In this document: positions 41,399 through 46,768 of the stretch, one piece after another
How the letters are laid out: every line of letters begins with the position of its first letter
Numbering within the stretch: the first letter of the stretch is position 1
Assembly (NCBI GenBank): GCA_947388185.1
Contig: CANDQP010000008.1
Location: 1 to 49,234 of the forward strand
Origin: an uncultured Dorea sp.
GTDB lineage: Bacteria > Bacillota > Clostridia > Lachnospirales > Lachnospiraceae
DNA: 49,234 nt
Direction: 5' to 3'
The notes under the pieces: generated by a model
Seen by the model: the letters and a program-made list of their open reading frames with translations, nothing else
Database searches by the model: none
What the model was told of the DNA's origin: nothing
Made by a program: the position numbers and the translations under genes

Positions 41399-41427
41399 TT
41401 GACATTCTATGATAACTAGGCTATAAT
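41399..41427 (+). promoter_or_regulatory. Consensus sigma-A promoter of tRNA-Arg
   Basis: TTGACA (41399-41404), 17-bp spacer, TATAAT (41422-41427): a perfect consensus promoter 31 nt before the tRNA, as expected for stable RNA. Confidence 0.9.
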
Positions 41428-41458
41428 GAATATCGTTGTAAATAACCTTGTGTTTTAT

Positions 41459-41532
41459 GTGGGCGTAGCTCAGCTGGATAGAGCGTTTGGCTACGGACCA
41501 AAAGGTCGGGGGTTCGAATCCTCTCGCCCACG
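41459..41532 (+). tRNA. tRNA-Arg (ACG)
   Basis: Acceptor GTGGGCG / CGCCCAC, D stem GCTC / GAGC, anticodon stem TTTGG / CCAAA with loop CTACGGA (anticodon ACG, expected to be read as inosine), T loop TTCGAAT, discriminator G. 74 nt, CCA not encoded. Confidence 0.96.
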
Positions 41533-41876: not shown

Positions 41877-43124
41877 ATGAAGAGAAATGTTATTGTTGGA
41901 CAGTCAGGAGGACCAACGGCAGCGATCAATTCAAGCCTTGCCGGAGTTTACCGCACAGCGAAGGATCGTGGAGCGCAGAAGGTATATGGTATGCTTCATG
42001 GTGTACAGGGTCTGTTAGAGGAGAGGTATATCGATCTGTCAGATCACATCAAGACAGAGTTGGATGCGGAATTATTGAAGAGGACGCCGGCGGCATTTTT
42101 AGGTTCATGCCGGTACAAGCTGCCTGAGATTCATGAGAACCGCGAAGTATACGATAAGATTTTTGAGATTCTTGAGAAGCTGGATATTGAAGCCTTTATC
42201 TATATCGGCGGCAATGATTCCATGGATACCATCAAGAAGTTGTCTGATTATGCGATCATTACAGGATTTTCAACGAGATTTATCGGATGCCCGAAGACGA
42301 TTGATAACGATCTGGCACTGACAGACCATACGCCGGGCTACGGAAGCGCTGCAAAATACATCGGAACATCTATGAAAGAGATCATCCGTGACGGATTCTG
42401 CTTAGAGCATGAGAAGGGAATCGTTACGATCGTAGAGATCATGGGACGTAATGCAGGCTGGCTTACAGGTTCAGCAGCCTTGTCCATGGGTGAGGACTGC
42501 GAGGGTCCGGACCTGATCTATCTGCCGGAGATCGAGTTCGACATTCATTCCTTCAGCGCGAAGGTTAAAGCACTGGTAGAGAAGAAGACGTCTATCGTAG
42601 TTGCGGTTTCTGAGGGGATCCGCACAGCAGACGGCACCTATGTATGTGAGCTTGGCAACAGTATCGACTTTGTCGATGCATTCGGACATAAGCAGTTATC
42701 AGGAACAGCGTCTTATCTTGCAAGCTTTATCGCGGGCGAGATCGGATGCAAGACTCGTGCGATCGAGCTCAGTACCCTGCAGCGTTCCGCATCGCATGCG
42801 GCATCCCGCGTAGATATCCTGGAAGCATATCAGGTAGGCGGTGCGGCAGTGAAGGCAGCGGACGAGGGAGATTCCGGCAAGATGGTAGTCCTGCAGAGAT
42901 TGTCCGATGATCCGTATCAGTGCGGAACTGAGGTGAAGGATGTCCACAAGATCGCCAACGATGAGAAGCTTGTTCCGAGGGAGTGGGTGAACGAAGAAGG
43001 TACCTATGTGACGAATGAGTTCATTTCCTACGTGAAGCCTTTGATCCAGGGAGATGTGTCACCGGTTATGGTTGACGGTATTCCGAGACATCTGCTTACA
43101 CCGACAGAGTTAAGCTATAGATAG
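41877..43124 (+). CDS. 6-phosphofructokinase, pyrophosphate-dependent type
   Basis: PFK fold with the nucleotide/PPi region GGNDSMDT (111-118) and PKTIDND (139-145). An Asp where ATP enzymes have Gly in GGDGS, together with Lys140, is the pattern of PPi-dependent PFKs. It makes fructose 1,6-bisphosphate reversibly from fructose 6-phosphate using PPi. 415 aa, as in the clostridial long-type PFP. AAGGAAGGAAGGG precedes ATG 41877. A strong terminator follows. Confidence 0.93.
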   Translation: MKRNVIVGQSGGPTAAINSSLAGVYRTAKDRGAQKVYGMLHGVQGLLEERYIDLSDHIKTELDAELLKRTPAAFLGSCRYKLPEIHENREVYDKIFEILEKLDIEAFIYIGGNDSMDTIKKLSDYAIITGFSTRFIGCPKTIDNDLALTDHTPGYGSAAKYIGTSMKEIIRDGFCLEHEKGIVTIVEIMGRNAGWLTGSAALSMGEDCEGPDLIYLPEIEFDIHSFSAKVKALVEKKTSIVVAVSEGIRTADGTYVCELGNSIDFVDAFGHKQLSGTASYLASFIAGEIGCKTRAIELSTLQRSASHAASRVDILEAYQVGGAAVKAADEGDSGKMVVLQRLSDDPYQCGTEVKDVHKIANDEKLVPREWVNEEGTYVTNEFISYVKPLIQGDVSPVMVDGIPRHLLTPTELSYR

Positions 43125-43147
43125 ACCTCTGTAAAAGACGGTTTTTC

Positions 43148-43205
43148 AATTCCCGGCAGCAAGACAGAATCAGATCTGTTCTGCTGTCCGGGAATTTTTA
43201 TTTTA
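43148..43205 (+). terminator. Terminator after the PFK gene
   Basis: AATTCCCGG (43148-43156) pairs with CCGGGAATT (43188-43196); inner pairs AGCA / TGCT and GACAGA / TCTGT strengthen it; the tail TTTTTATTTTATTTT follows. Confidence 0.93.
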
Positions 43206-43220
43206 TTTTCCAAAAAATAC

Positions 43221-43249
43221 TTGTATTTTCAGATGAAATCGAGTAATAT
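43221..43249 (+). promoter_or_regulatory. Candidate promoter of the pseudokinase operon
   Basis: TTGTAT (43221-43226), 17-bp spacer, TAATAT (43244-43249). About 100 nt of AT-rich leader follow, containing a 7-bp direct repeat ATTCGAT ATTCGAT (near 43291-43304). Confidence 0.5.
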
Positions 43250-43355: not shown

Positions 43356-44846
43356 GTGGCATCAAAAGAAGAGTATGACGTATTGCGTCTGATTGAGCAC
43401 GGACAAACCTGTTATATCAGTTCAGAATGTGTGGAGGGATGGATACTGGCCGGTTGGCTTAAAAGTCAGCCAGGAATCCCCAAGGGCCGCCTGTTTGCCC
43501 TGATCCGGGATCTCACAGGGCAGTTGGGGATGCTCCATAAGTGCAGGAAGAAGCCTTGTTATCAGTATGTCAATCCGTACAGCATCGTGGTCACGGAAGA
43601 GGGGAGATTGTATTTCCTTGACCTGGAGGCGGGTTCTAACGAAAAACAGTTAAAATTCATGCAGAAGCGTGCTGTCCGGGAATGTTTTCTTCCGGCAGAG
43701 GAGGCGTACTACCAGAAGGCAAGTACCGGGCTTGACATCTATGGGGCGGGGAAGACCATCCAGTACATTCTGGCGGTTACGGTACCGCAGCCGCCGCTTA
43801 ACAGGCGGGAGGAAAGAAGATTTCGAAATATCATATCAAAATGTCTGAAATATCAATCTAAATTGGCATATCAAAATGCAGCAGAAATTCGCAGAAATAT
43901 TCCGCAATATCGAAAAAAGATAAGACACAGCCGTATCAGCAGAAGAAAGAAGGCCTTCATGATCGGCGGTGCAGCGTTGTTCCTTGCGGCGGCGTGGAAG
44001 CTTCAGGATTGGATTCAAATGGGGCGGCATCAGGCAGTAACCCAGGCATCACAGGAAGACCTGAAAACTCAGGAAACCGGGGAACCGCAAGAAGAGCTGA
44101 CAGAAGAATACAGATCTTATATGGAGCTTGCAATGGCGTACATCCTGGATGTGGAAGACTATGAGAAGAGCATCCGTTATCTTGAGAAGATTAAGAATGA
44201 CTATACACCGGCAGAGGATCTGCAGGAGGTAGTGGAGACACTTCTGGGGAGAAGAAAGGAGCCCGCAGAACTGGATAAACACTTGAAGGCGCTGGAGGAA
44301 GCGGCGCCAAAGGAAGGCCGCGAACGATGGTACCGGTGTCTGATCAGGGGCTACGGGTCGCTGAATACGAGACGGTCTTCTGAGTCCATTCTCCGGCTGG
44401 GCAAAGCCTGTCTGGACGAACTGGGCGAAGAGAGCGAAGAGTCAAAGGAAGTGAAGGAGTATATGGCTTCCGCCTGTGAGAGGGTGGAGGAATCAGAAGA
44501 GGCTGCGCGTATCTATGAAGAGCTGTTGGAACAGACGGAGGATAATGGGAAGAGAGAAGAGATCTACAGGAAAATTATTGTATTATATGAGAGTTGCGGA
44601 CAGAATGACCGGGCATTGGATGCCTGCATTCGGGGAGTCGGGGAGCAGACAGATTCAGAGGGGCTTAAGATCATGCATATCCGGCTGCTGTGTCAGGACA
44701 GCGCCGTAGACCGCGGGCTGTGCGTCCAGACAATACAGGGATATATCAGCCAGAGCAGGGAGATTCTTGAGATGGAAGAGTTTCAGAAGCTGCAAAGAGA
44801 ATATGAAATACAAGTGGAGGGTGATCACGTATGGGTAGGAAGATGA
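43356..44846 (+). CDS. Degenerate protein kinase (pseudokinase) with membrane helix and TPR-like repeats
   Basis: Residues ~1-190 fit a shortened protein-kinase fold. A hinge-like 'TCYISSECVEGWILAGWLKS' is followed by the helix before the catalytic loop, then CYQYVNPYSIVV where HRDLKPxNI should be, LDLEAG where DFG should be, and 'LDIYGAGKTIQYIL' like the DxxxxG helix of kinases. The Gly-rich loop, the VAIK lysine and the catalytic Asp are absent. One membrane helix (~203-219) and a TPR-like helical region (~245-480) follow. The plan recalls EssB/YukC-type pseudokinases but is not the same family. AGGTGAT (43344-43350) favours GTG 43356; GTG 43347 or ATG 43350 lie on it. It overlaps the next gene by 16 nt. 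Confidence 0.75.
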   Translation: MASKEEYDVLRLIEHGQTCYISSECVEGWILAGWLKSQPGIPKGRLFALIRDLTGQLGMLHKCRKKPCYQYVNPYSIVVTEEGRLYFLDLEAGSNEKQLKFMQKRAVRECFLPAEEAYYQKASTGLDIYGAGKTIQYILAVTVPQPPLNRREERRFRNIISKCLKYQSKLAYQNAAEIRRNIPQYRKKIRHSRISRRKKAFMIGGAALFLAAAWKLQDWIQMGRHQAVTQASQEDLKTQETGEPQEELTEEYRSYMELAMAYILDVEDYEKSIRYLEKIKNDYTPAEDLQEVVETLLGRRKEPAELDKHLKALEEAAPKEGRERWYRCLIRGYGSLNTRRSSESILRLGKACLDELGEESEESKEVKEYMASACERVEESEEAARIYEELLEQTEDNGKREEIYRKIIVLYESCGQNDRALDACIRGVGEQTDSEGLKIMHIRLLCQDSAVDRGLCVQTIQGYISQSREILEMEEFQKLQREYEIQVEGDHVWVGR

Positions 44847-46768
44847 AGAATATTGTTGCGTTGTTGGTAATACTGGGATTGATCTACTGGCAGCAGCCGC
44901 CTGCCGTTAGACCGGCATATGCCTGGGATGAAGGCAGCGGAGAGCAGAATATAAGCCCGGACCAGGAGACGGCTGCAGATTCGGATGGATCATGGGAAGA
45001 GGAGGATGAGATATCAGGAGGAACAGAAGAAGGAGATACATCGGAGAAGACAGAAGAATCCTTGGATGAATCGGATGAGAAAGAACCCCAGGGAGAGACA
45101 GAAGGGGAAGACAAGGAAGACAAAGAAGACAAAGAAGACGAACCGCCGATAGAATGCTTCAAGACGGTCATCCCGCCGGAGGACGGGCAGAACGGGTATT
45201 ACATGACCAGACCGGAAGCAGAAGTGCGTCATAACAGCGAGAGAGGGGTTACCAGATACTGCTTTACTGACAGCAGCGGGCGCAGGGAAGAAGGCGGGCT
45301 GACGGAAAAAGACGGCAGCTTTAAGATCGGAAGGGAACGTTTCCTTGAAGGCAGCAATCATCTGTCGGTATGGATGGAGGATGAAGCAGGAAAACGTGTG
45401 GAAGAATATGCGTTAGAGAAGACTTTTCTGGTTGATACGCAGCCGCCGTCAGTCAGGATCCGGACGCCTATGGGAGCAGAAGCCTGGTATCAGAAGGAGG
45501 TTTTCATCAATGCGTCCGGTGAGGATGGCGTCAGGGGGAGCCAGATTGAAGAGATTGCCTGCTTTGTGGGCAGCCAGAAGATCGGAAGCAGCAAGGAGTC
45601 TTCTGCCGGTTTCCTGATCTCCTGTGCGTCAGCAGGCGGGCAGGCGGTTCCGGTAACGGTGAGAGTGACAGACCGCGCCGGAAATATCGCAAGAGAGACG
45701 TGCGGTCTCTATATCGATCAGCGTCCGCCCAGAACAGCGGTGGAAGGGGTGTCAGACTACATGATCACCAGTGAACCGGTGGAGGTTGAATATCGGATAG
45801 AGGAGGAGAACGCTGTCGGGAAAATGGAGGCAGGCGCCAGATGGGAGGATCCCAGAGGACGGGTCATATATCTGGCGGCAGAAGAGTGGAAGGAAGAAGA
45901 AGGTGGCAAAAGTGCACGGCAGACCTTGAATGAGGACGGAATCTATCAACTGAGCGTCAGCGCATGGGATCAGGCAGGATATGAGGGCAGCAGCAAGGGA
46001 CAGGTGATCATAGACAGTGAGGATCCGGTCATCCGCCATGTAGATGAGCTGGACGGGCAGTATATGAAGAGCTTCTGCTGGGAATATCCGGCGGAAGAGA
46101 CGGTAGAGGACTTTACCAGCTATACTTACTCCGTGTGTCTGGACGGCAGGCCATATCATATCGGAGAGAATATCTTAAGAGAAGGGAAGCATGTATTAGA
46201 GGTACAGGCGGAGGATTCTGCCGGGAATAAGGGCAGGGCGGAGGCGGAATTTGCCATTGACCGAACGGCGCCCCGGATCATATTCGGAAATGCCAGGGAC
46301 GGACAGATCTACGAGGAAGCAATGAATTTTGAAGTATCGCTTGAGGATCAGGAAGATTATATCGAGGAAATTCGGATCAATGGGAAATTACAGAAGACCA
46401 CCGCTGAGAAAAAGACCTATTCCTATGAGGTAAAAGAGAGCAGGGACTACGAAGTCCTGGTGAAGGCGTATGACAGAGCCGGCAACTGTGCGGTATCACG
46501 GATGGATTTTACAGTGGCGCATAAGCAGAGCCTTCTTAACAAGTTTGCAGGACCGATCAGGAAGATGCTGGGAGTTCCTGTTCAAGAAAGTACGAAGGAT
46601 CAGGTGCTCCGGGAGCAGGAGGAGACAGGTGCAGAACCGATCCGCAGAGGCGGTATCGTTCTCCTTGGACTTGCGGGTACCGGATGTATAACTGCCATAA
46701 TCTGGCGGAGGAATACACTTCTGCTGTTGGCGGGCAGGCTTACGAATATTTGTAAAAAACAGTTGTGA
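44831..46768 (+). CDS. Ig-like repeat surface protein with acidic linker and C-terminal membrane anchor
   Basis: 645 aa. Signal peptide (1-30, ending RPAYAW); a strongly acidic Asp/Glu segment (~35-108) containing four 9-bp repeats; then several beta-sandwich, bacterial Ig/cadherin-like units with repeated 'VTDRAGN', 'AWDQAGY', 'AEDSAGNKG' and 'AYDRAGN' ends and 'DTQPPSVRI' / 'DQRPPRTAV' / 'DRTAPRIIF' starts. A C-terminal helix (~607-627) is followed by basic residues; no LPXTG. Likely an outward-facing membrane protein. ATG 44831 has GGAGGGTGAT upstream inside the pseudokinase gene, so translation of the two is coupled. Function unknown. Confidence 0.8.
   Translation: MGRKMKNIVALLVILGLIYWQQPPAVRPAYAWDEGSGEQNISPDQETAADSDGSWEEEDEISGGTEEGDTSEKTEESLDESDEKEPQGETEGEDKEDKEDKEDEPPIECFKTVIPPEDGQNGYYMTRPEAEVRHNSERGVTRYCFTDSSGRREEGGLTEKDGSFKIGRERFLEGSNHLSVWMEDEAGKRVEEYALEKTFLVDTQPPSVRIRTPMGAEAWYQKEVFINASGEDGVRGSQIEEIACFVGSQKIGSSKESSAGFLISCASAGGQAVPVTVRVTDRAGNIARETCGLYIDQRPPRTAVEGVSDYMITSEPVEVEYRIEEENAVGKMEAGARWEDPRGRVIYLAAEEWKEEEGGKSARQTLNEDGIYQLSVSAWDQAGYEGSSKGQVIIDSEDPVIRHVDELDGQYMKSFCWEYPAEETVEDFTSYTYSVCLDGRPYHIGENILREGKHVLEVQAEDSAGNKGRAEAEFAIDRTAPRIIFGNARDGQIYEEAMNFEVSLEDQEDYIEEIRINGKLQKTTAEKKTYSYEVKESRDYEVLVKAYDRAGNCAVSRMDFTVAHKQSLLNKFAGPIRKMLGVPVQESTKDQVLREQEETGAEPIRRGGIVLLGLAGTGCITAIIWRRNTLLLLAGRLTNICKKQL
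45107..45142 (+). repeat. Four 9-bp tandem repeats in the acidic linker
   Basis: GAAGACAAG, GAAGACAAA, GAAGACAAA, GAAGACGAA in frame. They encode an acidic E/D/K run, so unit number could vary without a frameshift and would alter linker length. Confidence 0.8.

Follow-up and report, generated by a model that had tools for sequence, protein, structure and literature searches.

The described couple closest in layout to the genes reported here is TsxD/TsxI of type VII secretion system (T7SS) subtypes d, e and j, in which a protein with an intact kinase is paired with an immunoglobulin (Ig)-repeat protein (Garrett, Higginson and Palmer 2024, PMC11217815). Dead kinase domains are known from YukC/EssB, which has a helical outer domain and for which, in the parts of the source covered, a hub role of the dead kinase is experimentally supported (PMC9600267); a further transmembrane pseudokinase hub has been postulated for TraF (PMC13037476, likewise in the parts covered). 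Here, we describe two overlapping genes on a 49,234-nucleotide stretch of DNA, hereafter the window, from an uncultured Dorea sp. (contig CANDQP010000008.1, GenBank assembly GCA_947388185.1), which encode a membrane pseudokinase and an Ig-repeat membrane protein. We lean towards reading the pair as derived, with loss of kinase function, from membrane kinase-Ig couples that stood alone, and as now serving as a transmembrane scaffold or receptor and not as an enzyme. The initial annotation had called such a pair possibly undescribed: the same layout with an intact kinase is that of the published TsxD/TsxI, and for this pair no description was found in the literature searched, a body that leaves out most subscription papers.

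Gene 1 (43356-44846, + strand) encodes a protein with a kinase domain, a membrane helix and tetratricopeptide repeats (TPR). A kinase fold had been proposed for its N-terminal region, and the predicted model contains a Hanks-type C-lobe, about half of a kinase fold, at residues 1-185 (43356-43910). The other marks of a Hanks-type Ser/Thr kinase that were looked for in this protein, an N-lobe with its Gly-loop and VAIK Lys, and the HRD Asp, are missing or replaced, as the initial annotation had stated; the DFG Asp, which it had also counted as lost, is kept in 63 of the 66 relatives scored. Other residues stand in place of the catalytic Asp, Lys and Asn in this protein and in nearly all of these relatives. 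Purifying selection on the dead lobe is strong (ratio of nonsynonymous to synonymous substitution rates, dN/dS, 0.04-0.17), and two conserved segments, YxYxNPYS and a P+1-loop-equivalent stretch (R108, F111, L112), likely form a contact face, judging by their conservation. The lobe is followed by a predicted membrane helix with a positively charged N-terminal flank (residues 196-226; 43941-44033) and by a TPR ectodomain predicted to lie outside the membrane (residues 244-496; 44085-44843), in agreement with the single crossing and TPR-like region noted earlier.

The conserved segments also fit the idea that the lobe acts in trans on an active kinase, whether by serving as a decoy or by activating it allosterically, while the Ig protein is the sensing subunit. 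Pseudokinases commonly act on kinases, and this genome encodes a PrkC-like kinase that could be such a target. We compared 65 unique loci (the window included, after 8 duplicates had been dropped) with single-sequence queries for EssC, two WXG100 proteins, YukC, one PP2C, one FHA protein and T2SSE, each of which recovered its controls. Relatives of the PP2C and FHA queries were found at none of the 65 loci, and the search for FHA genes in the rest of the genome that the initial annotation had suggested gave no PF00498 match (E up to 0.001, in a genome 92% complete), so that we regard regulation in trans as unlikely. Nor do the results support the label of a two-component system, if that term is meant as for sensor kinases.

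Gene 2 (44831-46768, + strand) encodes, in order, an inferred signal peptide ending in AYA (residues 1-31; 44831-44923; helix 3-20 in the model), an acidic linker of variable length (44924-45142; low model confidence), an array of Ig-like repeats recognized by Big_13 matches, the model and structure comparisons and divided here into five segments (residues 104-563; 45140-46519), and a C-terminal membrane helix, seen in the model (residues 620-644; 46688-46762). The first three of these had been recognized before, and the C-terminal helix is added here. Big_13 and related Ig models of Pfam match the protein, and the predicted model (mean predicted local distance difference test score 76.8) shows strands across residues 111-563, with low-confidence stretches in the acidic region (residues 22-103) and preceding the C-terminal helix. 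The nearest relative of solved structure by sequence is an Ig segment of the SiiE adhesin (E 7e-6). Because the signal peptide ends in AYA and a basic tail follows the last helix, the sequence suggests a type I membrane protein.

The 16-nt overlap of the two genes (44831-44846, + strand) had been pointed out before, and the start that gives exactly this overlap is kept in 35 of the 43 Ig-bearing relatives. These 43 are the loci with an Ig gene adjacent to the pseudokinase among the 63 at which its presence could be scored (L017 and L039, at contig ends, were left out; L021, where the contig end cuts the Ig gene, was entered as present). We also surveyed 396 Lachnospiraceae genomes, scoring the best three candidates per genome for the pseudokinase and for an Ig profile. 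Pseudokinase matches numbered 49 at 1e-10, of which 36 at 1e-30, and in those 36 genomes, searched whole, the Ig gene was present in 22, always at the pseudokinase, with no Ig ortholog elsewhere in the other 14 (whole-genome search, 1e-15). Ig presence changes at least seven times on the tree, where six independent pairs lie on supported branches, and we infer that its absence reflects loss and not gain. The 42 relatives recovered from named genomes carry titles such as Lachnospiraceae bacterium, Dorea, Faecalicatena, Mordavella and Extibacter. When 294 genomes of the order were searched, 12 matches emerged, each of them within Lachnospiraceae; the extra-family share of the 294 is not shown, so this does not establish a wider absence.

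Could this linkage be nothing more than a stable neighbourhood, two independent envelope genes held beside a phosphofructokinase (PFK) gene by slow change of gene order? The PFK gene accompanies the pair in 60 of the 65 unique stretches, even though the window shows a terminator-like hairpin after it, and the repeated changes in Ig presence point the same way. Against this reading stand the 16-nt overlap, kept exactly in 35 of the 43 loci, and the company that Ig homologs keep with kinases or pseudokinases at several unrelated sites, near secDF-like genes and between M50-protease and GcpE genes. We therefore find a mere neighbourhood quite improbable.

The homology of gene 2 extends to kinase-linked Ig proteins with E values down to 2.9e-74. 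At 1e-25 the Ig profile matched in 37 of the 396 genomes: 22 at the pseudokinase site, 13 within two genes of an intact-motif kinase, one (G161) by a divergent pseudokinase in a pair that adjoins PFK and GlpK, and one (G158) cut before the neighbour could be read. L188, where the stretch is cut, was left out of the kinase scoring. The intact kinase-Ig couples have the published TsxD/TsxI layout (T7SSd, e and j), and two kinds of site recur among them. At the first (L176-L183), a kinase-transmembrane protein of ∼700 residues and a small one-helix protein are followed by an Ig protein of 1259 to 1888 residues, near secDF-like genes. In L176 the SecDF match of the product was confirmed, the kinase-transmembrane protein (the one tested) has TPR matches, and FHA and PP2C genes lie 5' of the kinase. 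Some of the genomes with such sites (G353, G173, G040 and G391) have no type VII ATPase over the cut-off. At the second kind (L156, L185-L187), an M50 protease gene flanks the couple on one side and a GcpE gene on the other, assignments made by Pfam in L156 and from similar gene starts in L185-L187. This site looks like the uppS-cdsA-dxr-rseP-ispG envelope precursor cluster, judging by Pfam matches for two genes of L156 and otherwise by similarity. A Pfam Ig-like neighbour also stands beside related kinases in L083, L084 and L161, and the neighbour of the L157 kinase had no Pfam match.

Kinase-domain trees were built with chosen subsets of the 66 pseudokinases, 32 in a first tree and 21 under a mixture model, the latter tree without the contig-26 kinase of this genome. 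Under the mixture model the 21 pseudokinases form one clade (100/100), which groups with L155-L158, L083-L085 and L187 at 86/94, apart from kinases of the PP2C/FHA type. In the first tree the exact grouping was unresolved, and the whole group stood apart from the PrkC of this genome at 99/90. Four of the eight kinases that group with the pseudokinase clade stand beside a protein with a Pfam Ig-like match.

Several of our results weigh against descent from a kinase-Ig couple and against a tight functional union of the two proteins. The Ig gene is missing from its place in 20 of the 63 loci, so the couple is not obligate, and the expectation of the initial annotation that the two genes stay adjacent holds for the remaining 43 only. 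A short ectodomain occurs in 15 of the 20 Ig-less loci, yet also in 4 of the 43 Ig-bearing ones, a loose tracking, and the independent-pairs test of short ectodomain against Ig absence was not significant (median p 0.25). We accordingly dropped the proposal that loss of the Ig gene causes decay of the ectodomain, which is suggestive but fails this tree-based test. Across 39 loci, evolutionary rates covary with those of the Ig protein, given PFK, with a partial r of 0.43 for the ectodomain and 0.46 for the cytosolic lobe; the ectodomain is thus not singled out by a stronger signal. Covariation of both halves of gene 1 with the Ig protein beyond PFK is compatible with one functional unit, without locating the contact. 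For four of the eight nearest kinases (L155, L157, L158 and L085) no Pfam Ig neighbour was found, the neighbour of L085 not having been Pfam-scanned. Finally, the pseudokinase stem is very long (2.3) and the 86/94 support may reflect long-branch attraction; the exact sister of the pseudokinase clade is uncertain because of this long stem.

The shared layout raises the question of whether the pair could be a structural component of type VII secretion that is encoded away from the main locus, with an EssB- or TsxD-like pseudokinase and an envelope-spanning Ig protein in place of EsaA or TsxI. As in TsxD, a kinase domain on the cytoplasmic side, a single membrane helix and a helical or (TsjD) TPR ectodomain are predicted for gene 1, and as in TsxI, a signal peptide, Ig repeats and a C-terminal helix are predicted for gene 2, which is adjacent to the kinase relative (PMC11217815). 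Kinase-Ig couples do occur in type VII loci, such as L160, where kinase, PP2C, Ig and WXG100 genes stand together and the contig also carries an EssC-type gene, an arrangement like that of the published T7SSe. This genome itself encodes EssC, WXG100 and a 219-residue YukC protein, all on contig 26. However, an EssC-type ATPase over the family cut-off was found in 11 of the 36 pseudokinase genomes versus 84 of 360 others (odds ratio 1.4, Fisher p 0.31; G161, with its divergent pseudokinase, entered as negative), which leaves 25 of the 36 without one. Moreover, searches with the EssC, WXG100 and YukC proteins of this genome found relatives at none of the 65 loci, in keeping with the initial annotation, which had seen no ESX/WXG100 genes here, and its type VII locus carries a YukC of its own. 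In contrast to TsxD, the N-lobe is missing and the catalytic residues are replaced, and in contrast to TsxD/TsxI clusters, which include TsxC and TsxA and, in subtype e, TsxF and TsxJ, EssC, WXG100, PP2C and FHA relatives were not found at the 65 loci, and the pair is not associated with EssC-bearing genomes. Because of the co-occurrence result and the lack of EssC, WXG100 and YukC relatives at the loci, the pair is by these tests not a type VII component, though the layout is shared, and we consider a remote type VII part very doubtful.

Membership of the EssB family was rejected both by Pfam and by co-occurrence. No PF10140 (YukC) hit to the gene 1 protein was listed up to E 10, although filters drop most hits above 0.1, whereas the control, the YukC homolog of contig 26, matched at 2.7e-28. 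EssB/YukC was also not among the matches listed by Foldseek or VIA-align for the lobe and outer domain, which we do not use as evidence. The comparison with EssB in the initial annotation is fair as a functional analogy and fails as a family assignment, given the missing Pfam match and the separate YukC protein in the genome. In the type VII locus of contig 26 (L104, 4825-10313), the 219-residue YukC homolog ends right after a hydrophobic helix-like stretch, and the same contig encodes a kinase-like protein of 1062 residues whose C-terminal part is long (L103, 7220-10408). Assignment to a Tad pilus was likewise rejected: the T2SSE genes of this genome lie on contigs 13 and 123 and have no relatives at the 65 loci.

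What the gene 1 protein shares with EssB/YukC and TraF is a dead kinase domain, a membrane helix and a second soluble domain (PMC9600267 and PMC13037476, in the parts covered), and the analogy with YukC/EssB is reasonable because the hub role of that dead kinase is experimental (PMC9600267, same parts). It differs in its TPR ectodomain and Ig partner, and in that EssB is reported, in the portions covered, to have degraded yet present glycine-rich loop and VAIK positions, whereas here the whole N-lobe is missing. Membrane linkage and degradation of all three motifs are shared with catalogued families of bacterial pseudokinases, the MviN-type (ActPs3) among them; the covered portions of that catalogue contain no C-lobe-only family, and its main text lacks the terms TPR, tetratricopeptide and Ig-like (PMC12599244). 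The best Foldseek match by E-value (1e-5) is PknG, which has in common a kinase followed by TPR, but whole-chain superposition is poor (TM 0.25, root mean square deviation 25). PknG is soluble and active, unlike the protein described here, with its dead kinase and a membrane helix between kinase and TPR.

Upstream of the pair lies the conserved 6-phosphofructokinase gene (41877-43124, + strand), followed on the same strand by a predicted terminator hairpin with a T-rich run after it (43148-43196; RNA fold of 43126-43215, -32.6 kcal/mol) and by a predicted promoter, CTTGTATTTT-spacer-TAATAT (43220-43249, + strand), recognized by pattern recurrence and by alignment of 39 of the 65 upstreams, chosen by eye. 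The promoter pattern occurs within the upstream 200 nt of 45 of all 65 relatives (shuffled mean 0.1, maximum 2). Because the hairpin follows PFK and a promoter-like element precedes gene 1, the pair is probably a transcription unit of its own, and PFK probably one apart from it. Regulation by glycerol or sugar was rejected on the same two features, despite the conserved GlpK and PFK neighbours; the order of GlpK, moreover, varies. No Rfam match to a leader RNA element was found there at E up to 1. Elsewhere in the window (41399-41532), a consensus-perfect promoter-like site, TTGACA-17-TATAAT, directly precedes a tRNA gene (41459-41532), and in L073, L081, L147 and L028 the pair is flanked by two PFK genes, one per strand. 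A helix-turn-helix gene with a tail that we take to be Uma2-like, found 3' of the pseudokinase in L039-L041, was judged local.

The proposal of the initial annotation, a pseudokinase without catalysis that has an Ig membrane protein as its partner, thus finds support in the sequence, in the predicted fold and in the conservation of the linkage. If the pair is the kinase-dead scaffold or receptor that we favour, the Ig array would pass through the wall and sense or bind something, the TPR ectodomain may act as its dock, and a change would cross the membrane to the C-lobe, which would recruit a cytosolic protein instead of phosphorylating it. Because the lobe persists where the Ig gene is absent, cytosolic docking is probably the core function and the Ig protein an input module. 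As a tentative extension, on which we place less confidence, kinase-Ig couples may be stand-alone envelope receptors of Lachnospiraceae that occupy unrelated sites (near secDF, between an M50 protease and ispG, beside PFK), the TsxD-TsxI of some type VII systems being recruited members and the PFK-site branch having dropped the N-lobe and the chemistry, so that an Ig-repeat sensor drives what is now a scaffold made of the C-lobe.

These results connect the kinase and Ig proteins listed in the new type VII subtypes with a broader family, whose members also occur in genomes where no type VII ATPase passes the cut-off. They provide a natural series that runs from an active kinase to a pseudokinase reduced to its C-lobe, the partner being of one kind throughout, which makes testable what a bacterial pseudokinase retains after catalysis, and what its Ig partner senses in common gut bacteria.
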